A DNA stretch of 35,628 nt from Candidatus Magasanikbacteria bacterium CG_4_10_14_0_2_um_filter_33_14 (GTDB lineage Bacteria; Patescibacteriota; Patescibacteriia; Magasanikbacterales; UBA922): positions 428 to 36,055 of the forward strand of contig PFPL01000048.1 of assembly GCA_002793035.1 (NCBI GenBank), given 5' to 3'. Within the stretch, counting starts at the first letter, position 1. Each line of letters begins with the position of its first letter. This document shows positions 4,470 to 33,151 of this stretch, one piece after another. Below the pieces are notes generated by a model, which did not search any database, was not told where the DNA came from, and saw nothing but the letters and a program-made list of their open reading frames with translations. The translations under genes and the position numbers were made by a program.

Positions 4470-6221
4470 ATGTCTAAAAAGGAGAATTTTGTAGGCTTAG
4501 ATATCGCTGATCATACTATAGAGATTTTGGAAATTACAGGTTCTGGTAAGAAACCTACTTTGAGTTTGAAAAATAGATTAGAAGTAGAATCAGGTATTAT
4601 AGAGTGGGGGAGAATAAAAGATCCAAAAAGATTGGCAGATTTGTTTGCAAAACTTTTTTCTATTTCAGCTCAAAAACAAATTAGTAAGGAAAATGTTTTG
4701 GTAAGTTTGCCAGATTCTTTGGTTTATGTTCATATTTTTCATTTGCCACCTCATAGCAAGAGAGAAAGAGAAAAATTATTATTGAAAGAATTGCAAAGTA
4801 TTGTTCCAGAAAAGTTGGATAATATATTGTATAGTTATCAAATTTTTTCAGAAGAAAAAGATGTGGTAAAAGGTATGCTTGTAGCTATGCCGAAGGATGC
4901 GGCTGTAGAATGGTTCGATTTTTTCAAAAAAAATAAAATAAATGTAGAATTTTTGGACATAGAGCCTGTTGCTTTACGTCGTGCTGTTTTTTATAATCAA
5001 AAAAATGAAAAAATATGTTTGGTAGATATTGGGGCACAGTCTACTTCTGTTAATATTTTGAACAAGGAAAGGTTTTATTTTTCTTACAATACTCATATTG
5101 CAGGTGACTATTTTACAAGAGAGATTTCCAATAAATTAAATTTAAATTTGGCAGAGGCAGAAAAAGAAAAAATTAAAAATGGTTTAAATGGTAGTGACAA
5201 AGAAATAAATACTATAGTACAGGGAGCTATAGACAGGTTGATAGTAGATATAAAAAATATAATAGAAGTAAATGACGATAAAGAACATAAATTAGTTAAG
5301 ATTGTTTTGGTGGGTGGTGCTAGTCAGACTGCTGGTTTGGTAGAATATTTACAATCTCATTTTGAAATTCCTGTCTCACTTTTTACTTTGGAAAAGTCTT
5401 TCAAAACAAATGACGTTGAGTATATAGAAGCTTTTGGTTTGGCACTTCGTTCTTTTGATAAAAAAGAATATAGTGATGAACCAGTCATTACAGAAAAACA
5501 AATAGGACAAAAGAATGGAGCCTATAAACTGCTGAAAAAAGATGAATCTGACTATATTAGAAATCTTGATGAACATTTCGATGTAGTGGGTGTTTCTCCA
5601 GAGGTAAATTTTGATAGATATAATCCGGACACAAAGAAAGTGAGTCGTACTATTTGGTTATTGGCATTTTTGTTTATATCTATTTTGTTATTGTTAGGTG
5701 CTTTCTTTTTTCGGGAGAATAATAGAAAATCACGTCAGATTGAAAGTTTGAAAAGTAGTCAAAATTTTACAGATGTGGTACAATATAGACTACAAGATTT
5801 GAGTATTCAGGTACCTGTGGCTGTTTCGGCTACAGAGTATAATAAAAACAGAGTAAGAGCTAAGATCTTTTCAGATATTATACTCAAGATTGATTTGCTA
5901 GATAATCAAAACAATGAAAATTCAATATCGCAAGCTTCAAAAGCAAGGGCTCTAAAACAAGTTTCTTCTTCTGAAGAATTATATCCGTTTCACGTAGAAA
6001 AGATTGATAACAAAGACGAATTGATTTATAAGTGGCTTATTTTTTCTAATCTAGATATTAAGAACATGACGATAGAAAAAATAAATACTTTGAATACAAA
6101 TAGAATTCCTTATTTATTTGAAAGTCTCAACATTGTATCAGTCGAGGTTACCAGTAATCCTAATGTATATATGATGAATGTGGACGTGAAGGTGTCTAGT
6201 AATCAAGATTTAAATATTTAA
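4470..6221 (+). CDS. pilM: Type IV pilus assembly protein: PilM-like actin-fold ATPase domain plus TM helix and PilN/GspL-like C-terminal region
   Basis: NFVGLDIADHTIEILEI N-terminus, VCLVDIGAQST-like and IVLVGGASQTAGLVEYL phosphate/adenosine-type motifs. TM helix TIWLLAFLFISILLLLGAFFF followed by about 170 aa. Confidence 0.75.
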   Translation: MSKKENFVGLDIADHTIEILEITGSGKKPTLSLKNRLEVESGIIEWGRIKDPKRLADLFAKLFSISAQKQISKENVLVSLPDSLVYVHIFHLPPHSKREREKLLLKELQSIVPEKLDNILYSYQIFSEEKDVVKGMLVAMPKDAAVEWFDFFKKNKINVEFLDIEPVALRRAVFYNQKNEKICLVDIGAQSTSVNILNKERFYFSYNTHIAGDYFTREISNKLNLNLAEAEKEKIKNGLNGSDKEINTIVQGAIDRLIVDIKNIIEVNDDKEHKLVKIVLVGGASQTAGLVEYLQSHFEIPVSLFTLEKSFKTNDVEYIEAFGLALRSFDKKEYSDEPVITEKQIGQKNGAYKLLKKDESDYIRNLDEHFDVVGVSPEVNFDRYNPDTKKVSRTIWLLAFLFISILLLLGAFFFRENNRKSRQIESLKSSQNFTDVVQYRLQDLSIQVPVAVSATEYNKNRVRAKIFSDIILKIDLLDNQNNENSISQASKARALKQVSSSEELYPFHVEKIDNKDELIYKWLIFSNLDIKNMTIEKINTLNTNRIPYLFESLNIVSVEVTSNPNVYMMNVDVKVSSNQDLNI

Positions 6222-6237
6222 TTTATAAAAAAAGCAT

Positions 6238-6723
6238 ATGGCAAAGAAAGGTTTTACTTTGATAGAGTTACTTATAGTGATTTCTATCATTGCAATTTTA
6301 GCATCAGTTGTTTTTGTGGCACTTGATCCACTAAAGCGTTTTCAAGATGCTAGGGACTCAAGTCGTTGGGCAGATATTTCTGCTGTAGTCTCAGCAATAA
6401 AAGTTTATCAGGTAGATAATTCTGGAAACTATCCTTCTGCTATCACTAGTATGACTAGCGGAACAGTGTATATGATAGGTACTGGGACTACTGGATGTGA
6501 TGATAATGCTTGTGATGTTACAATTGGTGGAGATACAAATTGTGTAGATTTGGCTGATCTTGTTACTGGGGGATATTTAGGTGAAGTCCCTGTTAGTCCA
6601 AACGGTGTTTCTACATGGTCTGATGATACTACAGGTTATGTTTTGACTAGGTATGCTACAGGTATCGTCAAGGTTCAAGCCTGTGAGTCTGAAAATAGTG
6701 AAAGTATTTCAATTTCTAAGTAG
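6238..6723 (+). CDS. Type II secretion/type IV pseudopilin (PulG-like major prepilin)
   Basis: MAKKGFTLIELLIVISIIAILASVVFVALDPLKRFQDARDSSRWADISAVVSAIKVYQVDNSGNYP is a canonical prepilin N-terminus. Confidence 0.9.
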   Translation: MAKKGFTLIELLIVISIIAILASVVFVALDPLKRFQDARDSSRWADISAVVSAIKVYQVDNSGNYPSAITSMTSGTVYMIGTGTTGCDDNACDVTIGGDTNCVDLADLVTGGYLGEVPVSPNGVSTWSDDTTGYVLTRYATGIVKVQACESENSESISISK

Positions 6724-10809: not shown

Positions 10810-10833
10810 AAGGTCTAATTAAAATTTGTCTTT

Positions 10834-10864
10834 AAAAACAAAGCATTTGAAATGCTTTGTTTTT
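10834..10864 (+). terminator. Rho-independent terminator
   Basis: AAAAACAAAGCATT-tgaa-ATGCTTTGTTTTTT 25 bp after the histidine kinase stop. Confidence 0.8.
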
Positions 10865-10895
10865 TATTTATCAACTTTTTACTTATGAGGAAATA

Positions 10896-10904
10896 TGCTA
10901 TAAT
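10896..10904 (+). promoter_or_regulatory. Extended -10 promoter element TGcTATAAT upstream of the DUF4012 gene
   Basis: TATGCTATAAT 31 bp before the ATG at 10935, just after a terminator. No convincing -35. Confidence 0.5.
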
Positions 10905-10934
10905 TATATTGATAAATAGTTTGTTTTTTGCTAA

Positions 10935-13544
10935 ATGTCCAATAAAAAAAATATAAAGAAAAAAATAAGAAAACCGCCACGAAAATGTACAATTTGTGCC
11001 AAAATAGGGCATAATACACGTACTTGTCCAACGGTTCAAAAAATAGAAAAAACTTCATCTAAATTAGAAAAAAAAGATGGAGCATCTTTTGTTATTATCA
11101 AAGTTGGACATGAAGCAGATAAATCTCCTTTCGTATTAGATATCTCTACAAAAAATAGGGATAATAATTTGGAAAAGGTCGATGTATACAAGGATGATAA
11201 AAAATATATAAATGAACATAGAAATGTAGTTAGTTTTGCTGATATCATAACAAAAACTAATAATAAAAAAGTAAGTGAATTTACAAAATTAGATGACTCT
11301 AGTCTACAAACAAATAAGTTTACAAAAAAAGAAAAGACTAAACAACAAAAGGATTTTATCGCTACTAAGTTCAAAGTAAATAAAAATAATAGACTTCTAC
11401 CAAAAATTAATTTATTTAAAATTTTTGTAAAAAACCTTAAAAGATTGTTTAATTTTATTGGTAAAGTATTTACTTCATTTTTTTCAAATATAGCATTAAT
11501 TTTTTCTAAATTTTTCAATAGCTTTAGTTTAAAAAGGTTTACACTTAGTTTCGTTGTTTTGACAATACTCATTACTATTCCTTTGCCTGCTTTAGGCTAT
11601 TATAAAAAAATAAAATCTGATACCGCTGATATCTTACAAAAGAGTACTGATGCTTTTCTGGCATTACAATCTTCTACCGTTTCTGCTTTTAGCAATAATC
11701 TTGTTCAAGCTGAGAGTGATTTGAATTCAGCTTTGAATTCTTTTGGTAATGCTGAAGAAGTTATTGATAGAGAATACAAAGCTATGGTTTATGTAGCCAA
11801 ACTTTTACCTATTATTGGTGACAAAGTGAAAAGCCGACAAAAATTATTGTTAGCTGGTCATGAATTAGCTTTGGGTAATACTTACTTGGTAAAAGGAATC
11901 GATGAAGCTACTCAAGAAATGAGTGATAAAAATATGGTAGAACGTTTGACTATATTACAACAACATTTACGTGGTGCTCTAGATTCTTATGAGACCGCTT
12001 TGGTAGAAATAGATGAAGTAGATATCAAGTCTGTACCTGTTGATTATCAGCAGTCTTTTAGTGATTTTAAAATGTTGTTTGCCGGGTTTGTGGAAGATAT
12101 GAAAGATTTGGATAAAGTAATACAAAGTGTACAGCTTGTTATGGGTGGAGATGGTTTCAAACGTTATTTAATTGTGTTTCAAAATAATTTTGAAATGAGA
12201 CCTACTGGTGGTTTTATTGGTAGTTATGCTGTAGTTGATGTACAAAGTGGGAAAATATTGAATATTGAAGTACCTCCAAAAGGTAGTTATGATTTTCAAG
12301 GTCAACTTGATGTATATGAAAAACCACCATTACCTTTACAGTTGATAAATAAACGTTGGGAATTTCAAGATTCCAATTGGTTTCCTGATTTTGAGACTTC
12401 TGCAAAAAAAATGTCATGGTTTTTTGAACATGGTAAGAAAGTAAGTGTAGATGGTGTAATTGCCATTAATTCTTCTGTATTGTCTAGATTATTGAAAGTA
12501 GTTGGTCCTATTGAAAATGATAATTATGCTCTTTTGCTTGAGTCAGAAAATGCTTTGGAGAATTTGGAAAAGGAAATAAGAAATTATGATAACTATGAAG
12601 AAAATAATCCAAAAGAAGTATTATCACAAGTATTGGATCAGATTTTAGAAAGTTTACAAAATATTAATCCTAATAAATTGGTTTCTTTGGTAAAAGAAAT
12701 GCACGAAGCTTTGTCACAAAAAGAAATACAATTATATTTCAATGATTCGTATGTTCAAAATGCTGTGAAAGAATATGGTTGGACTGGTGAAATTTTAGCT
12801 ACCAAAGACAATCAAGATTATTTGATGGTGGTAAATGCGAATATTGGTGGTGAAAAGAGTGATTTTAATATCAGACAAACTATAGAACACCAAGCTGTCG
12901 TGTCTGAAGATGGAAGTGTGATAGATACTGTGGTTGTTACTAGGAAACATCTGGGTCAAAGTGGTGAAAAATATTTTGATGATCCAAATATAAATTATTT
13001 ACGTGTTTATGTACCAGAAGGTTCGGAATTATTGGATGCTGGAGGTTTTGTTTATCCAGATGAAGCTTCTTTTCAAGTTCCACCAAAGTGGTATGAAGAT
13101 GATGTTGATTTGGAAAATATTGAAAAAGAAGAATCAATTCATCTTACAACAGGAACTAGAGTTAATAAAGAATTTGATAAAACATCATTTGGTAATTGGA
13201 TTGTGACTAAGTCAGGAGAAGAGTCAAAAGTTTATTTTGTTTACAAATTACCATTTTCTGTTTTTGAAAAAACAATAGAACACGTAAATAAAAGTAAATT
13301 TAATTTTAACAGTATTTTAGGTATTGAAGATAAAACAAAAAGTCTTTCTAGATATAGTGTACTTTTGCAGAAACAGTCTGGTATGGATAGCAAAGTTTTT
13401 AATACTATAATTTATCCAGATGTTTGGTCGCCTATTTGGAAAGAGGGTAGTGAAGATTGGCAATTGTCTAGTAATGGTGCTTCTATCGAAGAAAATTTTG
13501 ATAATGACAAAATATTTGGTATAGTAATGGAAGAGAAAAATTAA
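10935..13544 (+). CDS. DUF4012 family membrane protein with N-terminal CCHC zinc-knuckle-like motif
   Basis: Motifs recognised as DUF4012-like: YLIVFQNNFEMRPTGGFIGSYAVVDVQSGKI, SVDGVIAINSSVLSRLLKVVGPI, KEIQLYFNDSYVQNAVKEYGWTGE. TM at FTLSFVVLTILITIPLPALGYY. N-terminal CTICAKIGHNTRTC. Confidence 0.85.
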   Translation: MSNKKNIKKKIRKPPRKCTICAKIGHNTRTCPTVQKIEKTSSKLEKKDGASFVIIKVGHEADKSPFVLDISTKNRDNNLEKVDVYKDDKKYINEHRNVVSFADIITKTNNKKVSEFTKLDDSSLQTNKFTKKEKTKQQKDFIATKFKVNKNNRLLPKINLFKIFVKNLKRLFNFIGKVFTSFFSNIALIFSKFFNSFSLKRFTLSFVVLTILITIPLPALGYYKKIKSDTADILQKSTDAFLALQSSTVSAFSNNLVQAESDLNSALNSFGNAEEVIDREYKAMVYVAKLLPIIGDKVKSRQKLLLAGHELALGNTYLVKGIDEATQEMSDKNMVERLTILQQHLRGALDSYETALVEIDEVDIKSVPVDYQQSFSDFKMLFAGFVEDMKDLDKVIQSVQLVMGGDGFKRYLIVFQNNFEMRPTGGFIGSYAVVDVQSGKILNIEVPPKGSYDFQGQLDVYEKPPLPLQLINKRWEFQDSNWFPDFETSAKKMSWFFEHGKKVSVDGVIAINSSVLSRLLKVVGPIENDNYALLLESENALENLEKEIRNYDNYEENNPKEVLSQVLDQILESLQNINPNKLVSLVKEMHEALSQKEIQLYFNDSYVQNAVKEYGWTGEILATKDNQDYLMVVNANIGGEKSDFNIRQTIEHQAVVSEDGSVIDTVVVTRKHLGQSGEKYFDDPNINYLRVYVPEGSELLDAGGFVYPDEASFQVPPKWYEDDVDLENIEKEESIHLTTGTRVNKEFDKTSFGNWIVTKSGEESKVYFVYKLPFSVFEKTIEHVNKSKFNFNSILGIEDKTKSLSRYSVLLQKQSGMDSKVFNTIIYPDVWSPIWKEGSEDWQLSSNGASIEENFDNDKIFGIVMEEKN

Positions 13545-13572
13545 ATTATCTATTTTTAAAAATATTTTTTGT

Positions 13573-15663
13573 ATGCCTGCTCAAGAAAAAAAACTTAACA
13601 AAAAGACGGCGAAAAGTAAAAGAAAGAAAACTAAATCTAAGAAAAATACTTCTCATAAAAAAAAGGAAGAAGTTTTGATAGAAAAAGAAGAAAAACTGGA
13701 AAAAGAAATTGAAAAAAATATTGAGCTTTTAGAAAAAGAAAGTAAGGATGTTGTCTCTGAAGAACAGAAAATTGTAACAATCGTGGAAAAAGAAAATGAT
13801 ATAGAAAAAGAAGAAGAACATGTTTTTGTTAAAAAAGATTTGCCAGAGGAAGAACATAGCGTTGACACCCAAAACAATGATGTTGTTTCTAGTAATGAAA
13901 TAAGTCAAAAATTAACTGAAATTTATGAAGATGATGCTGGTGACATGCCTGATATGCATCAATTTCAAAAAAGTAAGAGAAGTGGCTTTTTGCGTGCTTT
14001 CTTTATTTTGATTTTTTCTTTTATCTTTTTTGCAGCTGTGGCTTGGATTGGCTTTTTTGTGATTCAACCAGGTAACAAATTTTCAGAAGAAGATGTTATT
14101 TTGACCATGTCTGGTAATGAGGATTTTGTTTCTGGAGAGGAAAATGTTTATAGGATTAGGTACAAAAATTCTCAAAATGTAGCTTTGCATAATGTGAATA
14201 TTGAAGTTAGGTATCCAAAAGGTTTCGTTTTTTCTTCTAGTACTAGAGATACCATAGATGATAATCACGATAGTTGGAATTTGGGAGAATTAGTTGCAAA
14301 CAGTAGTGGATATATCGATGTTGTTGGTAAGGTGTATGGCAATTTAAATGATGAACAATCTTTTCGTATTTTTTTGAATTATACCCCAGATAATTTTAGT
14401 TCTCTTTTTCAAAAAGTAACTAGTCTGAGTATCAAGAATAGTGAAAATTTGGTAAATATTGATGTGGTTTTACCAGAACAAATTGTTGCTGGTTTAGATA
14501 CTCCTGTAAAAATAGTGGTTTCACCAAATAGTGATGTGGTGCTTGAAAATGTAACAGTTAAGTGTGAGTCTGAATCTTTTTCATTTAAGTCGAGCGATCC
14601 AAAAATAGTTGATGGTAAAAAATGTGAATGGTTTTTCCCAAAGTTAGAAGCTTCTCAAGAAATTAATATTTCAGGATTTTTTTCAGAAGTAAAAGAAAGT
14701 AGTTCTTTCAAAGTTTCAGTTAGTAACTGGGACAATATAGATATGACGGGGAATAGTTATGTTTTGGCTGATATTGAAAAAGAAATAACTCTTTCTAATA
14801 TTGATACAGTTTATAATTTGGTAATCAATGGTAGTGCCAGCTCTTTTGATATGCAACCAGGAGATACTATTAATGCTACTGTTCTTTTAAAGAACAATGG
14901 AGAATCAGTATTGAAAAATGCTAAATTAAAACTTATTTTAGATGCTCCTGCATATAAAGATAGAAGTATTTTGGATTGGAGTGCTCTGGATATGATTGAT
15001 TTAGATGGTGATATCGTGGGACAAAAGATTTCAGATAGTGTGAGAAGGGGAACTATTACTTGGGATAAACGTTATATTGAAGGTCTCTCTGAAATTTCAC
15101 CTGGAGATGAAGTTAGAATAGATATTAGTCTTCCTATAAAGGATTCATCGGGTATAAATTTGGCAGATTATGTCGCACATGTTATAAATGCATCTAGTCA
15201 GCTTAGTTATGAAATAAATGGAAAAGAGGAAACTTTGGGTAGTAATAAACTTGATATTAAACTTATTTCTGATTTGAAAATGGCTACTGAAGATAATATA
15301 GACAAGGATGTTGAAGGAAATACAGTTCATAAAATAACATGGCTCTTAACTAATTCTTATCATGATTTGAAAAATATCGAGATCAGTGCTGATTTATATG
15401 GTGATATTTCTTTAGAAGAAGAAAATATTGTAGTACCTGCTGGGACCATTACTTATGATAAAGAACAAAAAAAATTGAACTGGCAGATAGAGCAAATGCC
15501 TACAAGTGTGGATATTTTGGCAGCTCAATTTGAAATAACTATTTTGGCGGATAATCCAAGTCAAAATAATCTTACTTCAAAACCCGTAGTTAAAGCTTTT
15601 GATGATACTTTACAAGAAAAAATACAGGTATTTGGTAAAGATATTTTATTAAATAATAACTAA
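13573..15663 (+). CDS. Membrane-anchored protein with Lys/Glu-rich cytoplasmic N-terminus and extracellular DUF11/Ig-like domains
   Basis: Highly charged first ~135 aa, TM FLRAFFILIFSFIFFAAVAWIGFFVI. DUF11-like pattern YRIRYKNSQNVALHNVNIEVRYPKGFVF and NATVLLKNNGESVLKNAKLKLILD. Confidence 0.6.
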   Translation: MPAQEKKLNKKTAKSKRKKTKSKKNTSHKKKEEVLIEKEEKLEKEIEKNIELLEKESKDVVSEEQKIVTIVEKENDIEKEEEHVFVKKDLPEEEHSVDTQNNDVVSSNEISQKLTEIYEDDAGDMPDMHQFQKSKRSGFLRAFFILIFSFIFFAAVAWIGFFVIQPGNKFSEEDVILTMSGNEDFVSGEENVYRIRYKNSQNVALHNVNIEVRYPKGFVFSSSTRDTIDDNHDSWNLGELVANSSGYIDVVGKVYGNLNDEQSFRIFLNYTPDNFSSLFQKVTSLSIKNSENLVNIDVVLPEQIVAGLDTPVKIVVSPNSDVVLENVTVKCESESFSFKSSDPKIVDGKKCEWFFPKLEASQEINISGFFSEVKESSSFKVSVSNWDNIDMTGNSYVLADIEKEITLSNIDTVYNLVINGSASSFDMQPGDTINATVLLKNNGESVLKNAKLKLILDAPAYKDRSILDWSALDMIDLDGDIVGQKISDSVRRGTITWDKRYIEGLSEISPGDEVRIDISLPIKDSSGINLADYVAHVINASSQLSYEINGKEETLGSNKLDIKLISDLKMATEDNIDKDVEGNTVHKITWLLTNSYHDLKNIEISADLYGDISLEEENIVVPAGTITYDKEQKKLNWQIEQMPTSVDILAAQFEITILADNPSQNNLTSKPVVKAFDDTLQEKIQVFGKDILLNNN

Positions 15664-15668
15664 ATTAT

Positions 15669-16049
15669 ATGAGTTTAGGAAAAGTTCTCGTGGTAGAAGA
15701 TGAAAGATCTTTGTCAGAAGCATTAGTTAGAAAATTTACACATGAAGGGTTTGACGTGATGGTAGAGAATAATGGTGAAGATGGACTTTCTACTGCTTTA
15801 CGTGAAAAACCTGATATTATCTTATTAGATTTGAAAATGCCGAAATTAGATGGTATGACTGCTTTACAGCATTTACGTAAAGATACATTATATGGTAAAG
15901 ATGCTAAAGTTATTATACTGACCAATTCTTATGATGTAGACAAAATAGGTGAAGCTACTAATTTGGGCGTATTTGATTATTTTATTAAGTCTGATTCTCC
16001 TATTAGTGAAATTGTAACCAAAGTAAAAGACAGACTTGGTTTGAAATAA
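15669..16049 (+). CDS. Single-domain response regulator (CheY-like receiver)
   Basis: KVLVVEDERSLSEAL, phosphoacceptor DIILLDLKMPKLDGM, VIILTNS and conserved K in DYFIKSD. Confidence 0.93.
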   Translation: MSLGKVLVVEDERSLSEALVRKFTHEGFDVMVENNGEDGLSTALREKPDIILLDLKMPKLDGMTALQHLRKDTLYGKDAKVIILTNSYDVDKIGEATNLGVFDYFIKSDSPISEIVTKVKDRLGLK

Positions 16050-21333: not shown

Positions 21334-22164
21334 ATGGAACATTCTAACGTCTACAAACCATCATACCTCATAGAACTTTGCAAAAAGTATAATCTCTCTC
21401 CTAGTAAAAAATATGGGCAGAATTATCTGATGACAAAAATTTATATTGATAAGATGCTCGAAGCAGGAGAAATAAATAAAGACGATTTAGTTGTAGAAGT
21501 AGGACCTGGTTTTGGTGTACTTACTTTCGCTTTGGCTGAAAAAGCTGAGAAAGTTGTTTCTTTTGAAATAGAACAAAAATTGAAAGAATATTGGGAAGAA
21601 AATAGCCCTGAAAATTTGGAAATTGTCTGGGGTGATGTATTAAAAAAATTTTCAATTTTCAATTTTCAATTTTCAAAATATAAAGTTATCGCAAATTTAC
21701 CTTATCAAATAACGTCTGGGATTTTGCGGATGTTTTTGGAATTGGAAAATAAACCAGAAAAGATTGTCGTCATGGTTCAAAAGGAAGTGGCGCAGAGGAT
21801 TACAGCTAAAAAAGGGGATATGAGTGTCTTGGCTATCTCTGTCCAATATTATGGGCAACCAAAAACTGTCGCCAAGGTTACCAAAGGAAATTTTTGGCCA
21901 TCACCAAAAGTGGATTCAGCTGTATTGCTTATAGATAATATTAAATCACCCAATAATGATTTTTCTGATGAATATTTTTTTGAAGTGGTGAAAGCTGGTT
22001 TTGCTCAAAAAAGAAAACAACTTTGGCGCAATTTGTCACAAGGTTTGAAGTTGGATGGTGAAAAGGTAAAGATTGTTTTAGAAGATGTATGTGGCAATGA
22101 CAAAATTCGGGCTGAGGAACTTGATGTTTTAGATTGGGTAAAGGTAGTGGAAAGTATAGTTTAG
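21334..22164 (+). CDS. rsmA: 16S rRNA (adenine(1518)-N(6)/adenine(1519)-N(6))-dimethyltransferase
   Basis: KKYGQNYLMTKIYIDKML, VVEVGPGFGVLTFALAEKAEKVVSFEIE, IANLPYQITSGILRMFLE, VMVQKEVAQRITAKKGDMSVLAISVQYYGQP, FWPSPKVDSAVLLI. Confidence 0.95.
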   Translation: MEHSNVYKPSYLIELCKKYNLSPSKKYGQNYLMTKIYIDKMLEAGEINKDDLVVEVGPGFGVLTFALAEKAEKVVSFEIEQKLKEYWEENSPENLEIVWGDVLKKFSIFNFQFSKYKVIANLPYQITSGILRMFLELENKPEKIVVMVQKEVAQRITAKKGDMSVLAISVQYYGQPKTVAKVTKGNFWPSPKVDSAVLLIDNIKSPNNDFSDEYFFEVVKAGFAQKRKQLWRNLSQGLKLDGEKVKIVLEDVCGNDKIRAEELDVLDWVKVVESIV

Positions 22165-23109: not shown

Positions 23110-26100
23110 ATGTTTAAAAACTTCAAGACCAAATTAAAATTATATACGGTCATGGCCATTTTTTTCTTTGTTCAGATATTTGGTGTGTTTTTTATCGTCA
23201 AACCTGCTTATGCTCAGATGGATGGCGCTATTACATCAGCTTTTGTTTCAAAATGGACTTATGACAAAATTGAAAGTAATTTGACAGCCGCGGCACTTGG
23301 ATCTCTTGTCAGCGGTGTGTCTTATTTTATGCGTAAGCTTGCTTATGATGGTGCCAAATATATTGCTTCAGGTGGCAAGGGTCAAGAAGCTTTGGCTTTC
23401 AAAGATGGTTTTGGTAGTTATTTGAAAGATACGGGGGGAGCTGCTCTTGGTTCTGCTATTGAGAATTTGGGTAAGCCTTTTGGGTTGAATCTATGTTCAC
23501 CTCCAGATATTAGAGTAAAAGCTAGTTTACAAGTTGGTTTGGACAAAATTTATAACGCTGCAAACAAAACTGATGGTACAGCACCTGCTCCAGATTGTAC
23601 TTGGACAGAGTTCAAAAACAATTGGCAAGATATAGGTGAACTTTATAATAAAGATTCTATTTCAGAACGTTTTGCTGTGTCTGTCAAATCTACTCAAAGT
23701 GATTTGGGAATTACTTTGAATTCTATGTCTAAATTAGATAAGTTACTTACTACAAAACAACAAGCTGCTATTTTGGATAGACAAGAAGGTAATGGTTTCA
23801 AATCTGTAGGTGATTTAATTGCTGGAAATATAAAAACCCCAGCTTCTTTGGTTCAATATGAAGCAACTAATTTGACTGCCAAAGAACAGGCAAAATTTAG
23901 TTCTGAACAAGTAGCAGGACTTTATGGTGCTAGTGCTTGGCAAATTATTCCTACATCACTTTCAATTTTTGCAAATACTCTGGTTTCTAGTTTGTTGGAT
24001 AGAGTTTTGAACAAAGGTATAATCAATAATCAAACAGGGGATGCCCTAAATGTAGATGCTATGGCTTATAGTGTCTCTAGCAATAGACAAGCGGCTGAAA
24101 AAGCTTTTTCTTTCCTAATAACAGGTATTCCTCAGCGTAATTTGAATAGTTACGACGTAGTAACAAGATTTACAGCCTGTCCAGAAACTCCAGGATTGGA
24201 TAATTGTATTATGGACAGTGATTTGGGTTCAGCTTTGGGACGTGAATATTCTGATACACCCTTGACTATCAAGCAAGCTATTGATATTGGACTTTTACAT
24301 GGTGACTACAAACTTATTCCTCCTAGTAATATTGTTGATAACACTGACACAGATTGCTATTTGGGAGCTTATTGTTATTCTAATATTCAAAAAATGCGTA
24401 AGGCTCGTATTTTGCCGTTAGGTTTTGAGATAGCGGCTTCCAAATCTAATCCGGACAGTCCTTATACTTTAGCAGAAGTTGTAGCTGGATATAATCAGTG
24501 TAATACAACTCTTACCCCAGATGCACAGAATCCTTTTTGTCATTTGATAGATCCAAACTGGGTTTTGAGAGTACCAGAAGCTCGTTGTGAAGCACAAGTA
24601 TATGGTCCACTACTTTCTAGTGATAATTCTAATCAAAGAATTTCAGAGTGTGCTGATTTTTCTAGTTGTATTGCTTATGATAACAATGGACAATGTATAA
24701 ATTTTGGTTATTGTACTAAAGAAAAAAATGCTTGGGATATTCCAGGAGTTAGTTGTCCAAGTGAATACAATACTTGTAAGACTTATGCGAGTACGAATGG
24801 TAATATAGCTTCTTATCTTTCTCGTACAGTTGATTATGGTACTTGTAATATTGATTCAGTAGGCTGTACTGCTTATAGTGCTGATAAGCTAAATGGTAAT
24901 TGGAAAAATGATAATACTGTAGATTTGGCTTTACAAAAAGCTGGACGTGAACAAGTACTTTATTTTAATGATAATATAAATAATTTGAAATGTCCTGCTT
25001 CTGAAAATGGTTGTAGTCTTTTTATTTATCCTGCTACCAATCAAGATGTTTATTTGAAAAAAGCACCAGATTATCTTGGTTGTTATGATATGGATTTGAC
25101 AACTACTGAGATTGAATGGGCAAAGAGTATCGCTGATTTGAATACTTTGAAATCAAGATCACAAGTCGAATGTGCTGATTTTGCTCCTGTTTGTATTCAA
25201 GATGAAGTAGGTTGTGAAGCTTATACACCAAAAGATGGTGGTGTGACTCTTACAGGTGTTGTTGGTAACAATTTTTGTCCAAGTCAGTGTGTGGGTTATG
25301 ATACTTTCAAACAAGAAGAAACAAAATTTGAAAAAGCAGAATTCCCACTTTATTTGAGACCTGCCGACGGACAATCTTGTGCTCCTCAATATGCTGGTTG
25401 TGATGAATTCACCAATTTGAGTACTGTTTCTGGTGAAAATTTGGAATATTATAGTGATTTGAAATATTGTCAACCAAAAGATGGTAACGATGCAAAATTG
25501 TATTATGCTTGGGTTGGTTCTGATAGTCAGGGTTATGTGTTGAAACAATATACACTAGCTCCTGTGGATCAAGCAGAATCTAATTTTATTGATAGTTTAG
25601 CTCCTCTTGGACTTTTGGCTGATGCTTCTCTTGATAGTCAGATAGAAGGTTCTCCACGTTATGCAGATACTAGTGTTGATACTCTAAATAGTAATTATGA
25701 AATATGTAATGCTGAGAGTTATGATATATTGATACACAATCCTTATGCACCAGGAGCGGCTAGTACTGATTGTCGTGAATTCCATGATGCTGATGCTAAT
25801 ATTTACTATCGTCTTTTGAAAGAAACAATTACTGTTTCAGATTCTTGTCAGCCATTACGTAAGACAAATAGTGATTCTTATAAGAGTAGAGAATTGACAG
25901 CAAAAGGTCAAAGTGTTTGTGAAAATAGAAATGGTAAATGGGAAAATAGTTCTTGTATGGTCTGTATGAATGGTGGAGAATATTCTACAGATAACAAAGG
26001 TGTTGGATATTGTAAATATTGGTCAATCCCTGAAGAAGCCCAAAGTTGTCCTGCTGTCGTAAATGGTTGTCGTCTATATATTGGTAATACTGGTAATAAT

Positions 26101-29100
26101 TTACACGAAATTTATAGTACAAGTTTTGAGCCAAGTGGAGACGGAGCTACTGCTCTTGTAGACGCTAGACGTGGTTGGGGTGCTGGTGAAAGTGATAATA
26201 CTATTTCTGTTGAACCAGAAGCCACTCAACTTGGTTTGTATTCTTTGAAAATAAAAAATGGTAGTACTTATCTAAATCTAGGTTCAAAATTACAAAAAGG
26301 TAATTGGTATCAAGTTTCTTTTTGGGCTAGAGGAGACAACAGTAAAGTAAATATTTTCTTTGGTCAAAACAATTCAGCTGCTTTGGGTAGCTTTACTACA
26401 GATCCTTTGAATGGCAATGCTATCCCGGTTACTGTTGGTTATGATTGGCAAGAATACAATTTGGGTCCAGTGATGTATGAAGGTGAAAATAGTAGTGTCA
26501 ATTCTATCTTGACTTTTACTTCAGGTGCTACAGGTGAATATTTTGTAGACAATGTTAGAGTGGTAAGTATGAGTGATAGTCCAAATGATTATGTTCCTTT
26601 GGTCAAGGATTCTTGGAAGACTTCCGAAGGTTATGACGTATCTACATCCTGTGATTCTACTCCGACAGATGCTTATCCTGGAGAATACCTAGGTTGTAAA
26701 GAATATGGTACCAGAGATAATCAAACTGTAAATATTACAGGTTTCCAAAATCTTTGTCGTGCTGAAGCTGTTGGTTGTACTGGACTTGTGGATACAAACA
26801 ATATTCGCCCTGATACTTATGTTGGTGTAAAAGACGTTGCTTATAATTTGCGCTGTGTACAAGGATATAATAATACTAGTGATATTTGTAAAGTTACTAT
26901 TTTGGATCAAGAATATTCTTGTAGTGTTGTCAAAGGAGAAAGAAATTGTCATATAGAAGTTCCTATTCCTTTTGATAACGATTCTTCAATTGGTAATTTT
27001 GTTGCTAGTGCAGATGTACTTCCTTTGGACAGAGCTTATTTCGATGCTTCTACGGTTGTAGTTCCTATTTCAGAAAGTAATACTCTCAATAATTTGGTTT
27101 ATTTGACTGTTAATAGTAATTCTCTTTGTACACAACAATATCTTGGTTGTCAAAAAGTTGCGGTACAAACTCAAGTTTTGCCTGACACTACAAAAGCTGC
27201 TTCTTATGATTTTAGTGAAACTTATGTTTTGAATAATCCAAACAATTACGCAAATACACTTTGTACCCAAGAACAAAAGAGTTGTAAATCATTTACCAAT
27301 GGTAACAATGTTAGCTTCTTCAAGGACCCCGCTACAAGTAGAGGTGCTCTCTGTGTGTACAAATCTGCTACTCAAGTAAGTGGTAGCAATGCTAGTGGTT
27401 GGTTTTTAGATGGAGTAGGCAAGTGTAGTAGTGGGGTGGATTATTGTCGTCAAGATAGTGATTGTGGTACAGGAAATATTTGTCAAAATATTGGTAACCA
27501 ACCTTGTTATAATAATTATTTGTTGACTTCTGGTGAATATGGAGTTTATTCCAATGGTTCTGAAAGTTATGATGGTTTGGTAGCTAGTTGTGAACCAAAT
27601 TACAATGGTTGTACTGAGTTGGTAGACCCTATTGATGAAAAGAGTTATTATGTCGTAAATGATGAAAAACTTTATGCCAAAGCTAGTGAATGTAATGGTA
27701 AAGTAAGTGAAAGAGATGGTTGTGTCTTGTTTGATATGACAGAAAATCCAAGTAAATTTTATGATAGTGCTGTTACTTATAACAGTAGTAAAAATAAGGA
27801 TTACCAGTTGGTAGAAATTGAAACTGTAGATGCAACAGTAGGTGACAGTAATACTCTACTAAAAGTAGATAGAAACAGACAGTGTGGAGAGTGGTTGGCT
27901 TGTCGTACTAGTAAAGTAGAAGTAGATGAAAATGGTGTAGCTCAAAAACTTTGTTTGGATTATCAGGCTTGTAACAAGCTTGGTGCAAATGGTGACTGTG
28001 CTTCAGATGGTTGGGTCTTAGACAAAAGTAATGCACTTCTGACAGAAAAGAAATATATTTCACGTAAAGATTTTTCAGATTATGATTATTCTGGATATTC
28101 ATTGTTCAACAAATACAATCCTAGTGATTATGTCTATCTACAATTCCCAAATCATACCGATGCTTATTTAGCTTATCAAGTGTCTGATTCTTTGTTTGTT
28201 GGGGATTATAGAAACAATGGTTGTTTTGGTTTGAAACCTGACGGTACTTTGGCCAAAAATGACGGTGATGTTTGTGGTGCTGATAGTGGTGGTCGTTGTT
28301 ATTCTCAAAAATGTCTTTATCCTACTAATGGTAAATATAATAGTAGTGTAGAGGTAGTAGCAAACAATAATAAAGAGACTATATCTAGAAATGTAGAAAA
28401 AATGCTTTCTTTCTTGGAACCTGGTACTTGTAAATCTTTTCCAGAAATAGATTCTCCTTATGATACTTCTCTAGCTATTTCTGGAAATCCTGCTGATAGC
28501 AACAATACAAATATCAAGAAAAATGATAATCTTTTGAATGGTCCTGTACGTTTTGAATACCAGAGTATCAAAAATGATTTTGCCAAAGCTAATATTTGTC
28601 AGTTTGATGCTGAAGGTAAGGAAGATTGTTCTTGTGATTATATAAAAGTAGAGTATAAGAATGGTACGAAAGATTACTGGCCACGCAATGCTAATCTGGA
28701 TATTCCTATTGGTATTTGTAGTGGTACTGGTGACAAAGACGGTGAACCTTGTGAAAAAGATAGTGATTGTAGTATAGGTGGTACCAACAATTATGGTACC
28801 TGTAACCAACAAAAGAGTAACAATACATATATTGGTCTCAAAGGTCTTTGTCTTGAGTATGATCTTAGTAGACCAGTGGGTACTGTAGAAAAGAATAATA
28901 ATATCTATCAACAATTTGCTTGTCTTACTTGGTTGCCAATTCAAGTTTCTGCTACAGCCTATGATCTTTACAATTCAGATGTACAAGCAGGATATTATCC
29001 AGAGCGAGGTTATGATTCAGAATATGGTGGGTTAGCTTATTGTGCAGAGTCTACTAATTATGATCTTGGTTATTATGATGATGAAACTTTTGGAAAAATG

Positions 29101-32001
29101 TTGTTTAAATATGATCTTTTGGGACCTAATGGAAATACTAGAGAAGAAAAAACCGTAAATCAAATTGATTGTGACCCAAGAATTCAGGAGGATTGTCAAG
29201 GTTATCAGGCTTGTGGAGATGGTGCTTATGATGCTAACGGTGATATAATTTGGTGTAATGAAGGAGCAACAAATTTGAATGGTTTTGATAATTTGTATTT
29301 AGACACAGGTGCTACTAAACATTGGTTTAATGATATGTTTCTTTTAAATGAAAAAGTTTACACAGGTATGAATAATGGTGACGTTTATCCTCTTTATAAA
29401 AAAGAGTGGGGAAGGAATGATTGTACTAATAATTATGAGGATGCATTTATTATGAAATTTTTAAGGAGTACAGAAGGATTTTATAAAGGTATGCAAGCTT
29501 GGGCTTGGTTAGATATTGGACCAAATTCTCGTATTTTACGTTTTGATGCTGATGGTAATTGTTTCAAAAATCAGGGATATGATAATGTATTTGGTTTTGA
29601 TAAAGCATCTTCTGGGGATGATACTGCCGTAGTATATTCTTTTGCACCACTGCTCTTTAGTTCTAATAATGCTGTAAACGATTCAGGAACTATCATGCAT
29701 CCTCCATTTCCTTCTGGTTTGAGCTATGATGCTGTTAGCAGTGCTAATGATGATCCTAATTATGTTATGACCGTCAATAGTACTAATTATGTTAATGCGG
29801 AAAGTACGGCTTTTTCTTCTAGACAGTCTCTTAAGTTACTTAATTCATCTAAAGATGGAGAAAATAAATTATATATAGACTTGGATGTAGAGTCTAAGTT
29901 GAGTGAAAATGATTTATCAAGTGTATATTTTGTACCCGTAAGTTATCCGGATGGTGCTGAAGGTCCTGATCCTGGTATTTTAACTAAAAATTTCTATATA
30001 AACTTCACTTATTTAAAAAATAGTGGCAAAGATTTTGGCATGGTAAACGTTCCGTCTATAAAAGATGATAAATTTTTATCTGTTACTGATAAATATTCAG
30101 GTAGTACAAAAAATTTCTTTTATAAACTTACTAGAAAAAATGATGAGTTTAACTGTCAGGATAATGGACTTTTGTCTAAATGTAATTATGAAAATGGAAA
30201 TGTAACAGAAGAAAGTAAAATATATACTAGGTATGTTGCTTTATACTATAATAGTAGCCTATTTGGTCTAGGACATAAATTTGACTTTGATACAACAGAG
30301 CACCTACCAAATAATATCGATAATGATCCTTTTTCAGCTGATTGTGTGGGTAAAAGTGACAATAATTGGTTAGCAATAGGTATGGACTTCAACGAAGATG
30401 GTGAATTTTTGGGATATATTTCTCGTTACTGTAATGGAACTGGTGGAGACACGGGAATAAGATTTGTAACAATTGCTGATTTAAATAATCGTTGTACACA
30501 ACTAGTTTCTGTGGTAAATGATAAGTCAAAATGGTATTCATATGAAGGATATAATAAGGCTTGGACAAATAGGGTTTGGGCTGGGGCTAAGGATTTACCT
30601 AGTTTTATTCAAGTTAATTTAGCTGCAGATAAATCTACAAACTTGGCTCCTTTTGGATCTCTAAATTTAAAGGATAATGATATTCGTAGCATGGTCGATG
30701 GAAATTACCAGGTAGATCTGTCAAAAAATGTTAGATATTATGGTTTTTCTGATAACAATATTGGTATTCCTTATAGTGCTACCGGTGCTAGTCTATTTGA
30801 CAAGGAATATAGAGCTAATCAAGTAGGTGATACAAGTATAACAACTGTCCAATCTTCGGATAATCATATTTTTACTACTAACTCTTATTTTGATGACCCT
30901 ATTTCAAATAATAAACGTTTGTCTGCTGCAAGGACAATACATGGTTTATTTGTGAAATATTATTCTTTCTGGGATCTTTTCAAAGATTCAAAGTTATCAG
31001 ATTCTGATGATTTGAAGTTAGATGTATCTGATAGTTCTTTTGGTCTTAAACCACCTCAAATATATTCTATAAATTATACAACTTGTCAAAATAATTCTTT
31101 GAGTGATAATTGTGTTGCTTCAACTAACGGAATGACTGTCAACGATAGAAACTATAATATTACAAATGTATCTACAGATATTAGGTCAAATGAAGATAAA
31201 AATGGAGACAATGTTATTGATCCAATAATTGCCAAAGGTAGTTACACTGCTGACATGAGATTCTTTGGCTTTGCTGATGACAATAGAATGCCTATCAAAC
31301 GTGTGATGGTAAAGTGGGGAGATAATATTATAACTGGTCAAGGTAGTGTCGGTTTCTATAAGAACAGAAAACCATACTGTGCTCCAGATGGTGATGTTGG
31401 TCGTTGCTCTTTAAATAGTACTTGGAGTGAGGGAGATTCACAGTTAACTTGTCGTGTAGACGAAGATTGTAAGGGATTGGGGGAAAATTATAAGTGTGAT
31501 ATTGATGGAGTTGCTGTACAAGGTAACTTCGGTGATGATGAAAGAGCTTGTAAGAGTGACTACTTCGAATTTACACACAACTATTATTGTGATGTAGAAA
31601 ATAGTAATGATGCTTATACTCTTGATGAAATAAAAAATAATGCTTTGGTAAAGAGTATAATTGGAAATGGAGAAGGAACTGGGAATAGTTATTTTGAAGT
31701 TCGTTTATTTGGTCCAAGCTCTGATTCTAAGAGTGTTGCTAATGCACAAGCTGCTTATGCTGCTTTGAAGAGTCTTGGTGAAGAAAATCTACAAGATGAT
31801 GACAAAGTATGTGTCTTCAAACCAGCCGTCCAAGTCTTGGATAACTGGGGTTGGTGTAATGGTAGTTGTAATAATAATGATGGTAATGGTTGTTATAATG
31901 AATATCAACAAAGTGCTCAGTCTTTTGTTTCAGATCAATGTAAATCAAGTTCATTTAAGGATTGGGATTATTATAAAGGTTCTATAGTTATTATTCCTTA
32001 A
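23110..32001 (+). CDS. Giant (2963 aa) secreted Cys-rich surface protein with recurrent CX6C motifs
   Basis: Single uninterrupted ORF; N-terminal signal/TM LYTVMAIFFFVQIFGVFFIVKPAYAQ. Recurrent CX6C motifs and CxxDSDC-type motifs; CBM/jelly-roll-like stretch around GLYSLKIKNGSTYLNLGSKLQKGNWYQVSFWARGD. Confidence 0.9.
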   Translation: MFKNFKTKLKLYTVMAIFFFVQIFGVFFIVKPAYAQMDGAITSAFVSKWTYDKIESNLTAAALGSLVSGVSYFMRKLAYDGAKYIASGGKGQEALAFKDGFGSYLKDTGGAALGSAIENLGKPFGLNLCSPPDIRVKASLQVGLDKIYNAANKTDGTAPAPDCTWTEFKNNWQDIGELYNKDSISERFAVSVKSTQSDLGITLNSMSKLDKLLTTKQQAAILDRQEGNGFKSVGDLIAGNIKTPASLVQYEATNLTAKEQAKFSSEQVAGLYGASAWQIIPTSLSIFANTLVSSLLDRVLNKGIINNQTGDALNVDAMAYSVSSNRQAAEKAFSFLITGIPQRNLNSYDVVTRFTACPETPGLDNCIMDSDLGSALGREYSDTPLTIKQAIDIGLLHGDYKLIPPSNIVDNTDTDCYLGAYCYSNIQKMRKARILPLGFEIAASKSNPDSPYTLAEVVAGYNQCNTTLTPDAQNPFCHLIDPNWVLRVPEARCEAQVYGPLLSSDNSNQRISECADFSSCIAYDNNGQCINFGYCTKEKNAWDIPGVSCPSEYNTCKTYASTNGNIASYLSRTVDYGTCNIDSVGCTAYSADKLNGNWKNDNTVDLALQKAGREQVLYFNDNINNLKCPASENGCSLFIYPATNQDVYLKKAPDYLGCYDMDLTTTEIEWAKSIADLNTLKSRSQVECADFAPVCIQDEVGCEAYTPKDGGVTLTGVVGNNFCPSQCVGYDTFKQEETKFEKAEFPLYLRPADGQSCAPQYAGCDEFTNLSTVSGENLEYYSDLKYCQPKDGNDAKLYYAWVGSDSQGYVLKQYTLAPVDQAESNFIDSLAPLGLLADASLDSQIEGSPRYADTSVDTLNSNYEICNAESYDILIHNPYAPGAASTDCREFHDADANIYYRLLKETITVSDSCQPLRKTNSDSYKSRELTAKGQSVCENRNGKWENSSCMVCMNGGEYSTDNKGVGYCKYWSIPEEAQSCPAVVNGCRLYIGNTGNNLHEIYSTSFEPSGDGATALVDARRGWGAGESDNTISVEPEATQLGLYSLKIKNGSTYLNLGSKLQKGNWYQVSFWARGDNSKVNIFFGQNNSAALGSFTTDPLNGNAIPVTVGYDWQEYNLGPVMYEGENSSVNSILTFTSGATGEYFVDNVRVVSMSDSPNDYVPLVKDSWKTSEGYDVSTSCDSTPTDAYPGEYLGCKEYGTRDNQTVNITGFQNLCRAEAVGCTGLVDTNNIRPDTYVGVKDVAYNLRCVQGYNNTSDICKVTILDQEYSCSVVKGERNCHIEVPIPFDNDSSIGNFVASADVLPLDRAYFDASTVVVPISESNTLNNLVYLTVNSNSLCTQQYLGCQKVAVQTQVLPDTTKAASYDFSETYVLNNPNNYANTLCTQEQKSCKSFTNGNNVSFFKDPATSRGALCVYKSATQVSGSNASGWFLDGVGKCSSGVDYCRQDSDCGTGNICQNIGNQPCYNNYLLTSGEYGVYSNGSESYDGLVASCEPNYNGCTELVDPIDEKSYYVVNDEKLYAKASECNGKVSERDGCVLFDMTENPSKFYDSAVTYNSSKNKDYQLVEIETVDATVGDSNTLLKVDRNRQCGEWLACRTSKVEVDENGVAQKLCLDYQACNKLGANGDCASDGWVLDKSNALLTEKKYISRKDFSDYDYSGYSLFNKYNPSDYVYLQFPNHTDAYLAYQVSDSLFVGDYRNNGCFGLKPDGTLAKNDGDVCGADSGGRCYSQKCLYPTNGKYNSSVEVVANNNKETISRNVEKMLSFLEPGTCKSFPEIDSPYDTSLAISGNPADSNNTNIKKNDNLLNGPVRFEYQSIKNDFAKANICQFDAEGKEDCSCDYIKVEYKNGTKDYWPRNANLDIPIGICSGTGDKDGEPCEKDSDCSIGGTNNYGTCNQQKSNNTYIGLKGLCLEYDLSRPVGTVEKNNNIYQQFACLTWLPIQVSATAYDLYNSDVQAGYYPERGYDSEYGGLAYCAESTNYDLGYYDDETFGKMLFKYDLLGPNGNTREEKTVNQIDCDPRIQEDCQGYQACGDGAYDANGDIIWCNEGATNLNGFDNLYLDTGATKHWFNDMFLLNEKVYTGMNNGDVYPLYKKEWGRNDCTNNYEDAFIMKFLRSTEGFYKGMQAWAWLDIGPNSRILRFDADGNCFKNQGYDNVFGFDKASSGDDTAVVYSFAPLLFSSNNAVNDSGTIMHPPFPSGLSYDAVSSANDDPNYVMTVNSTNYVNAESTAFSSRQSLKLLNSSKDGENKLYIDLDVESKLSENDLSSVYFVPVSYPDGAEGPDPGILTKNFYINFTYLKNSGKDFGMVNVPSIKDDKFLSVTDKYSGSTKNFFYKLTRKNDEFNCQDNGLLSKCNYENGNVTEESKIYTRYVALYYNSSLFGLGHKFDFDTTEHLPNNIDNDPFSADCVGKSDNNWLAIGMDFNEDGEFLGYISRYCNGTGGDTGIRFVTIADLNNRCTQLVSVVNDKSKWYSYEGYNKAWTNRVWAGAKDLPSFIQVNLAADKSTNLAPFGSLNLKDNDIRSMVDGNYQVDLSKNVRYYGFSDNNIGIPYSATGASLFDKEYRANQVGDTSITTVQSSDNHIFTTNSYFDDPISNNKRLSAARTIHGLFVKYYSFWDLFKDSKLSDSDDLKLDVSDSSFGLKPPQIYSINYTTCQNNSLSDNCVASTNGMTVNDRNYNITNVSTDIRSNEDKNGDNVIDPIIAKGSYTADMRFFGFADDNRMPIKRVMVKWGDNIITGQGSVGFYKNRKPYCAPDGDVGRCSLNSTWSEGDSQLTCRVDEDCKGLGENYKCDIDGVAVQGNFGDDERACKSDYFEFTHNYYCDVENSNDAYTLDEIKNNALVKSIIGNGEGTGNSYFEVRLFGPSSDSKSVANAQAAYAALKSLGEENLQDDDKVCVFKPAVQVLDNWGWCNGSCNNNDGNGCYNEYQQSAQSFVSDQCKSSSFKDWDYYKGSIVIIP

Positions 32002-32016
32002 TAATAGTTTAAAAAA

Positions 32017-32054
32017 ACAAAAAACATGGTTTAAATAATAACCATGTTTTTTGT
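32017..32054 (+). terminator. Rho-independent terminator
   Basis: ACAAAAAACATGGTT-taaataat-AACCATGTTTTTTGT just after the giant ORF stop at 32001. Confidence 0.85.
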
Positions 32055-32106
32055 ATCAAAAAAATCCTTTTTTGAGGATTAAGAAAATTTATTAGATTAT
32101 TGTGTT

Positions 32107-32136
32107 GGCACCATGTTTCCGGAGAAACATGGTGCC
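32107..32136 (-). terminator. Strong hairpin at the 3' end of the GC-rich lipoprotein gene, terminator-like without a clear T-tract
   Basis: GGCACCATGTTTC-CGGA-GAAACATGGTGCC: 13-bp perfect stem, 4-nt loop, 10 bp beyond the stop codon of the minus-strand ORF. Confidence 0.6.
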
Positions 32137-32146
32137 TTCACAGTCG

Positions 32147-32674
32147 TCAGTTGGCCGAGGGGGGAGTTCTGGAGTAGTAGTACTCCTGCTCCAGAATTGC
32201 TCCATCGTACCAACGCTGGTAGAGCCGACCCTCTTCGGTCAGGCCAACTTCCAGACGTGTACCTTCATCTGCTGCCACGATCGGGAGACCGTAGACATCA
32301 GTGAATACTCCGCCATGGATTTCGGCACCTGGACCTTCGATCCGAACCTCGCAGACGCGAGGTGGAACCTGGCTGTAGCTGACCGTGGCCAGCTCACCAG
32401 ACGCGTTGTACCAGTCACCATTGATCACTGCGAAGGGCTCGCAGTAGTCTGTGGTGATGATGGTATCGGTCTCAGTGCTGTCGTTGACCAGCACGTCGTT
32501 GGTGCAGTACGGGTTGTCTGGCTTACCATCACAGAGTGTGTCGGACGTGTTGTCGGTATCACTCTGGTTGATGGTGTCGGTGGAGTCGATCGGCTGGGAG
32601 CCGGTCGACGATTCACAGGCCCCGAAGAGCCCGACGAGAGAGACCACCAGGAAGGTGGTCAGGGTCTGCCACAT
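32147..32674 (-). CDS. Predicted lipoprotein in a GC-rich island
   Basis: MWQTLTTFLVVSLVGLFGACESSTG: lipoprotein signal peptide with lipobox LFGAC. Start at 32674 preceded by GCAAGGAGGTCTTATG (strong SD). Low-complexity S/T/D/N linker and a ~100-aa C-terminal region. Confidence 0.8.
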   Translation of the reverse strand: MWQTLTTFLVVSLVGLFGACESSTGSQPIDSTDTINQSDTDNTSDTLCDGKPDNPYCTNDVLVNDSTETDTIITTDYCEPFAVINGDWYNASGELATVSYSQVPPRVCEVRIEGPGAEIHGGVFTDVYGLPIVAADEGTRLEVGLTEEGRLYQRWYDGAILEQEYYYSRTPPSAN

Positions 32675-32963
32675 AAGACCTCCTTGCGTGGCGGGTGACT
32701 TCTGTGCTCTATTTTTGGCTAAATAAAGCAAATAAGTTACCCGTCATTAGGAAGAATTTGTGTGGCTATCCCTGTCACATATTGTCTGACGACTTGTAAA
32801 AAACAGGTATTTATTTGGTATTTTCTATCCTGTACATGGGTAGTGTTACATGATAAGAAAAATATTAGCAAATAAATATTTAACTATTCATTTATATTAG
32901 ACCATATTTTAGCCAATTTGTCAAGGGGGAGGTGTGTATATTATATTTATTTAGTATGTATTA

Positions 32964-33057
32964 AAACACTAATCTTAACACTAATAATCACTAATTTATT
33001 TTAAAAATAGGCTTGATATAAAAAAGATTTGTGTGAATTTGTGTTAAAATTAGTGCT
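32964..33057. repeat. CACTAAT-type imperfect inverted repeat
   Basis: Left AACACTAATCTTAACACTAATAATCACTAATTT; right GTGTGAATTTGTGTTAAAATTAGTG, approximately its reverse complement. Confidence 0.55.
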
Positions 33058-33101
33058 TCTTGATTTTCCTTTAGTATTTTGCTAAACTAAGTAAGTAATT
33101 A

Positions 33102-33143
33102 AAGCCTTGTAGGCATTGTAAGCCTCGTAGGCCTCGTAAGCTT
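33102..33143. repeat. 9-bp tandem repeat (GCCTTGTAG/GCCTCGTAA units), four-plus copies
   Basis: GCCTTGTAG-GCATTGTAA-GCCTCGTAG-GCCTCGTAA-GCTT; same 9-mer family (reverse complement) as 18196..18276. Confidence 0.85.
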
Positions 33144-33151
33144 TTATAAAT

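Follow-up and report, generated by a model that had tools for sequence, protein, structure and literature searches.

The window, by which we mean the whole 35,628-nucleotide stretch of DNA analysed here, carries a gene for a giant secreted, cysteine-rich protein, with ksgA and a TSP3-type repeat gene before it and aspS and scpA after it (table 1). The protein ends in ...YYKGSIVIIP. It begins with the export signal expected of a disulfide-stabilised extracellular repeat, and an AxA-type site follows a hydrophobic stretch in 92 of the 93 related giants examined. The N-terminal domain was modelled as mostly helical at low confidence (pLDDT 69). Further along the chain, the jelly-roll domain matched Pfam family PF02018 with an E-value of 3e-5, slightly below the Pfam cut-off, and its Foldseek matches were to CBM16/CBM22.

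Table 1. Features of the giant gene and its upstream neighbours (positions in the window; residue numbers refer to the giant; T4SS, type IV secretion system).
Feature	Positions	Strand	Remarks
ksgA (rsmA)	21334..22164	+	TIGR00755; conserved flank of T4SS-linked block
TSP3-type (calcium-binding-like) repeat gene, 226 aa	22424..23104	+	5 bp before giant; PF18884, E 8e-9
Giant secreted Cys-rich protein, 2963 aa, 104 Cys	23110..32001	+	single copy in 1.10-Mb genome
Sec-type signal peptide, residues 1-35	23110..23214	+	cleavage motif AYA before Q36; hydrophobic peak at residues ~17-25
N-terminal domain, residues 36-405	23215..24324	+	homologous to small virB6-adjacent proteins of other Patescibacteria classes
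Putative Cys-staple region, residues 514-1538	24649..27723	+	ten CX6C copies and variants; motif search, profiles, model
CX6C copy 1, CPSEYNTC, residue 549	24754..24777	+
CX6C copy 2, CNIDSVGC, residue 579	24844..24867	+
CX6C copy 3, CPASENGC, residue 628	24991..25014	+
CX6C copy 4, CIQDEVGC, residue 695	25192..25215	+
CX6C copy 5, CAPQYAGC, residue 757	25378..25401	+
CX6C copy 6, CPAVVNGC, residue 980	26047..26070	+
Jelly-roll, CBM_4_9-like domain, residues ~1000-1165	26107..26604	+	between copies 6 and 7; Pfam PF02018 and Foldseek
CX6C copy 7, CRAEAVGC, residue 1216	26755..26778	+
CX6C copy 8, CTQQYLGC, residue 1340	27127..27150	+
CX6C copy 9, CTQEQKSC, residue 1385	27262..27285	+
CX6C copy 10, CEPNYNGC, residue 1494	27589..27612	+
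CX9C variant, CNGKVSERDGC, residues 1528-1538	27691..27723	+
Second conserved Cys-rich stretch, residues 1592-1978	27883..29043	+	Cys columns mostly conserved
C-terminal conserved Cys domain, residues 2645-2963	31042..31998	+	VQVLDNWGWC motif; ABY1 only in phylum sample

A contig scan with the single giant protein as query returned no relatives, while the same scan with an alignment as query returned 195. Relatives in named records belong mostly to Candidatus Magasanikbacteria, followed by Uhrbacteria and Falkowbacteria, which we take to be members of class ABY1 of the Patescibacteria. ABY1 are tiny bacteria that probably depend on a host. A profile of residues 405-1000 found a match in 155 of 167 good ABY1 genomes (172 of 192 overall), and the 12 good genomes without one may reflect broken assemblies of this 9-kb gene. 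Across 287 genomes sampled from the phylum, the profile matched 22, all of them ABY1, and none of the approximately 265 that represent other Patescibacteria classes; the C-terminal domain was likewise confined to ABY1 within this sample. ABY1 giants are 2000-3818 aa long and contain 68-152 Cys each. A 26,141-aa open frame in one genome proved to be a masked run of N. A phage origin was also rejected, as no relative was found in viral contigs.

A sequence-only reading of this DNA had listed ten CX6C sites and the variant CNGKVSERDGC, most copies having Gly before the second Cys and a hydrophobic or aromatic residue three positions after it. We found all ten sites and the variant in the 2963-aa ORF, and the finer pattern also held over 68 orthologues, with Gly before the second Cys in 75% of copies and Y, F, L or V at position +3 in 93%. 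The giant contains 12 CX6C, against 3.6 ± 1.9 expected from 2000 composition shuffles (maximum 10), and CX5C is likewise enriched (10 occurrences). The two CX6C beyond the listed ten lie at residues 688 and 1439. To score the motif we used a profile trained on the orthologues minus the query, with both Cys positions left unscored. The ten listed sites scored +8.2 to +22.4, the other two CX6C -35.7 and -10.4, and the mean over all positions was -17.7. Because a Cys-blind profile separates the ten from the other two, the list is correct. With the same profile, 40 further ABY1 giants yielded 6-10 high-scoring copies each (mean 8.3), and their shuffled versions (one shuffle each) yielded none. The copies follow the approximate consensus C-x-[AE]-E-x-[VA]-G-C-x-[AE]-[YF]. 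No Cys of the ten sites varies across all 21 Magasanikbacteria orthologues (29-51% overall identity), and these Cys are present in 99-103 of 103 ABY1 proteins. Two further variants, C723-x3-C727 and C1181-x14-C1196, were absent from the earlier list.

We then compared 61-column profile windows around the motifs with one another. Non-overlapping windows matched in register, among them 1216/1385, 757/980, 695/757 and 579/980 at 86-93% probability, bearing out the repeat by self-alignment. The median probability was 54% for motif pairs and 0.4% for control Cys windows, with overlapping windows inflating the top of both distributions. Aligned lengths were mostly 12-35 columns, and the spacing between copies ranged from 30 to 236 residues. 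In an AlphaFold2 model of residues 420-1600 (65 sequences, pLDDT 87.6, pTM 0.65), the secondary-structure string gave the same predicted local form at all ten sites rather than unrelated folds: a three-residue helix between the Cys, a strand starting from the second Cys and usually a second strand. On this model, the CX6C unit is a recurring staple of approximately 15-35 aa plus a strand or hairpin within a longer beta-rich chain, not a self-contained domain. The original proposal of a repeated small domain of unnamed family thus stands as to a repeated Cys element without a named family, but ‘small domain’ was too strong given the short aligned lengths and the wide and uneven spacing. Pfam and NCBIfam gave no match above curated cut-offs on the motif region, and fold and sequence searches of the PDB and of viral models returned no family for the staple. 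Named Cys-repeat and EGF- or TNFR-like domains were ruled out, as the motif region has no Pfam, NCBIfam or PDB match. Low-TM Foldseek matches to toxin binding components, CBMs and phage tail proteins were attributed to the jelly-roll, and the PknH sensor domain, matched marginally in the PDB (E 7e-4), was set aside since the matched stretch lies outside the motifs and the Cys are not aligned.

We infer that the CX6C pairs are bonded as disulfides. Disulfides in the giant are favoured indirectly by the signal peptide, by genes for DsbA-like and DsbB proteins and by the joint loss of neighbouring Cys. In the ABY1 alignment, variable Cys outside the invariant motifs vanish as neighbouring pairs (129/163, 416/422, 464/477, 520/529, 1249/1260, 1271/1280, 1830/1840 and 2781/2787); part of this co-loss is due to insertions and deletions. 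The genome of the window encodes three DsbA-like proteins and one DsbB, and no VKOR was found in it. Four sampled congeners also have DsbB and lack VKOR, while VKOR is present in about half of the related genomes sampled and several other genera use it instead. It is hardly credible that the CX6C and CX5C pairs serve as ligands of a metal or an iron-sulfur cluster: invariant Cys would suit ligands too, but the protein is exported, its genome encodes oxidative folding genes, neighbouring Cys are lost pairwise (129/163, 416/422, 464/477, 520/529 and 1271/1280) and no conserved His or ligand set was seen near the motifs.

Across ABY1, the gene order is ksgA, TSP3 protein, giant, virB6, x, prgI, virB4. 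The TSP3 gene lies upstream of the giant in 65 of 71 named loci with enough flank and in 39 of 40 further ABY1 genomes, picked among the class matches for long contigs; ksgA is upstream in 63 of the 71 named loci. T4SS genes follow the giant in 20 of the 31 named loci whose flank reaches 8 kb or more, and VirB6 is encoded downstream in 21 of the 40 further genomes. VirB4 was identified in relatives through P-loop_TraG (E 4e-26) and CagE_TrbE_VirB, and PrgI is above the Pfam cut-off in the window's own genome. One protein matches the TrbL/VirB6 Pfam family at 28.6 bits, which exceeds the cut-off, and two match it marginally; the remaining VirB6 proteins have no Pfam match and were assigned through similarity. 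In the genome of the window, virB6 and prgI lie on another contig, so the giant is separable from them. The family therefore sits in the VirB6/PrgI/VirB4 cluster in outgroups (see below) and in about half or more of the ABY1 loci with sufficient flank, but not in the window. ksgA is often near the replication origin, and the conserved order may partly be that of an origin-proximal block, an observation that counts against a T4SS reading.

We next looked at the N-terminal domain outside ABY1. A first profile, covering residues 36-420 of the giant family, matched proteins of 364 and 538 aa in two non-ABY1 genomes (loci L180 and L181), where the domain gene precedes virB6 directly or across one ORF. 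Comparison of the domain with these two proteins by hhalign gave E-values of 2e-9 and 5e-6. Extending the profile with both sequences brought the count to 13 non-ABY1 genomes from several families; L180 and L181 score high by construction because they are included in the extended profile. Among the 11 new loci, the domain was re-detected in 10, always before virB6 (nine adjacent, and one, L298, with one ORF between). At the remaining locus, L300, it was not re-detected, but an ORF of 1144 aa without a match is found one ORF ahead of virB6. Wherever the contig is long enough, including at L180 and L181, prgI and virB4 come next. The outgroup proteins are 280-1112 aa long (280-580 aa at most loci) and contain 4-20 Cys. 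Homology to the pre-virB6 protein of other Patescibacteria classes, as expected of a T4SS component, was therefore found. Judged from these sequences, the N-terminal domain is the ancestral part of the giant, and elsewhere in the phylum it is a small secreted protein encoded directly before virB6. Its low-confidence model (pLDDT 69) resembled no known T4SS subunit in fold comparison, which likewise counts against a T4SS reading.

These loci also bear on the main rival to a T4SS role, namely that the giant is a stand-alone adhesin or surface protein independent of the T4SS, and that its linkage to the T4SS is only that of a conserved gene block near the origin (the rpmH-rnpA-ksgA region). The CBM-like jelly-roll fits such a protein, and VirB6 is not directly downstream in the window or in about half of ABY1 loci. 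Moreover, ksgA is reported among the genes near virB4 in a 2025 survey of the Patescibacteria T4SS, where this is read as origin proximity (PMC12102498). We nevertheless consider a stand-alone protein unlikely. The domain without its giant extension still lies directly before virB6, separated by operon-like gaps of 8-82 bp at L291, L292, L295 and L299, in families distant from ABY1.

N-terminal homology and gene order thus tie the giant, at the level of sequence, to the T4SS, and it may be an outer part that touches the host cell. Our preferred reading, to which we give a probability of roughly 60%, is that the giant is exported through Sec and belongs to the Patescibacteria T4SS as a component that was enlarged in ABY1 and plausibly makes the contact with the host. 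Docking at the VirB6/VirB4 translocon is probably the task of the N-terminal domain, which in ABY1 would extend into 2000-3800 residues of beta-rich chain held by tens of disulfides as staples. The CX6C element, in which Cys, a short helix turn, Gly-Cys and a strand follow one another, would be the commonest staple, with the carbohydrate-binding-like jelly roll inserted among the copies. Such a rigid arm most likely projects from the surface of the monoderm cell and makes contact with the host cell on behalf of the T4SS. We infer that the giant belongs physically to the T4SS machine, is surface-exposed and disulfide-paired, and takes part in host contact or adhesion.

The T4SS is reported to be essential in Saccharibacteria, where the only Patescibacterium to be genetically tested belongs, and its role there is described as ‘completely unknown’ (PMC11665869). 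The 2025 survey reports a dataset without a detected PrgB-type adhesin (PMC12102498), which leaves that role vacant for the giant. We therefore propose the giant as the host-contact arm. More tentatively, and at somewhat less than even odds, the exterior of the ABY1 T4SS may be formed by this single, approximately 3,000-residue, disulfide-armoured protein of CX6C staples, a repeat not described before, which would reach and recognise the host instead of a PrgB-type adhesin.

Two further alternatives fare worse than the stand-alone protein. A structural envelope or S-layer-like protein, whose disulfides would cross-link and strengthen the thin envelope of a monoderm cell, would explain the large size, the near-universal single-copy conservation in ABY1, the very high Cys content (68-152 per protein) and the beta-rich fold. 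However, this is a single gene adjoining T4SS genes, its ancestral N-terminal-domain proteins are small (280-580 aa at most outgroup loci) and Pfam and NCBIfam scans gave no S-layer family match, making this explanation very unlikely. A large effector sent by the T4SS into host cells, as the adjoining T4SS genes in many relatives might suggest, is most improbable for a protein with a cleavable Sec signal, extreme predicted disulfide content, near-universal conservation in ABY1 and no catalytic domain found.

As a T4SS component, the giant would be a candidate outer part now named for nearly all ABY1 genomes, with an ancestral domain that is encoded next to virB6 in several further lineages of Patescibacteria. 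It offers a sequence handle for localisation, interaction and structural work on the T4SS, and the CX6C staple would be a new kind of bacterial repeat architecture held by disulfides. In VirB operons the gene order is virB5-virB6. VirB5 accordingly shares with the giant its position before virB6, export and a predicted helical N-terminal domain. A VirB5 identity was considered from gene position, but the low-confidence model had no VirB5/TraC-like fold match in the PDB and no relevant profile match was seen. The short Cys-rich repeat Myxo_Cys_RPT (TIGR04201) matches weakly at residues 1445-1460 (16.7 bits against a cut-off of 25), away from the ten CX6C sites.

Neither the accessible part of the survey (PMC12102498) nor the literature searched, outside subscription journals and preprints, was found to mention the giant. 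With the MPF_FATA-like T4SS locus of Patescibacteria (CPR) described in that part of the survey, the family shares the neighbours VirB6, PrgI and VirB4, its N-terminal domain corresponding to the gene before virB6. No such gene is described there, and only ABY1 has the giant Cys-rich form. PrgB and other polymer adhesin domain proteins of Gram-positive conjugation would match it in role, as secreted contact proteins of a monoderm T4SS. Unlike PrgB, the giant is Cys-rich, is encoded directly before virB6 and has no polymer adhesin domain by Pfam scan, in which only the CBM_4_9-like domain was seen. CagY of the Helicobacter pylori Cag T4SS is a T4SS protein enlarged by long repeats with regularly spaced Cys, and its repeat region has been proposed to form the sheath of an external filament (PMC2581425). 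The repeats of CagY are alpha-helical and its C-terminus is VirB10-like, whereas the giant, in which no VirB10 similarity was found, appears to be built from beta-rich CX6C staples.

Searches for the oxidative folding genes VKOR and DsbB in sampled Magasanikbacteria relatives found DsbB but not VKOR in the genus of the window, whereas several other genera carry VKOR and lack DsbB. Across these relatives the two genes look complementary.

On the contig of the giant Cys-rich protein, a PilM-like gene and the pilin-like protein that follows it, recognized by its N_methyl motif, place type IV pilus genes near the giant. In the gene row at window 8008-16049, the sensor histidine kinase has dCache, PAS and HisKA domains. 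Between the giant and aspS (window 32002-33151, approx. 1.1 kb), the ORFs are weak and overlap one another, and none makes a convincing gene. An open frame of 26,141 aa at L229, a locus in another genome (G120:C8), was rejected: the sequence there is a stretch of masked N that had been taken for an open frame.

Outside ABY1, the N-terminal-domain protein of locus L298 has a weak CBM_6-like match and is followed by a 1054-aa ORF and then virB6. It is possibly an independent enlargement in a lineage other than ABY1.

Gene rows in the window and the L298 protein
Feature	Position	Details
PilM-like gene, then type IV pilin-like protein	window 4470-6723	
Large sensor histidine kinase, DUF4012 protein, DUF11-like protein, response regulator	window 8008-16049	consecutive genes
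N-terminal-domain protein, non-ABY1	L298:7755-11090	1112 aa, 20 Cys
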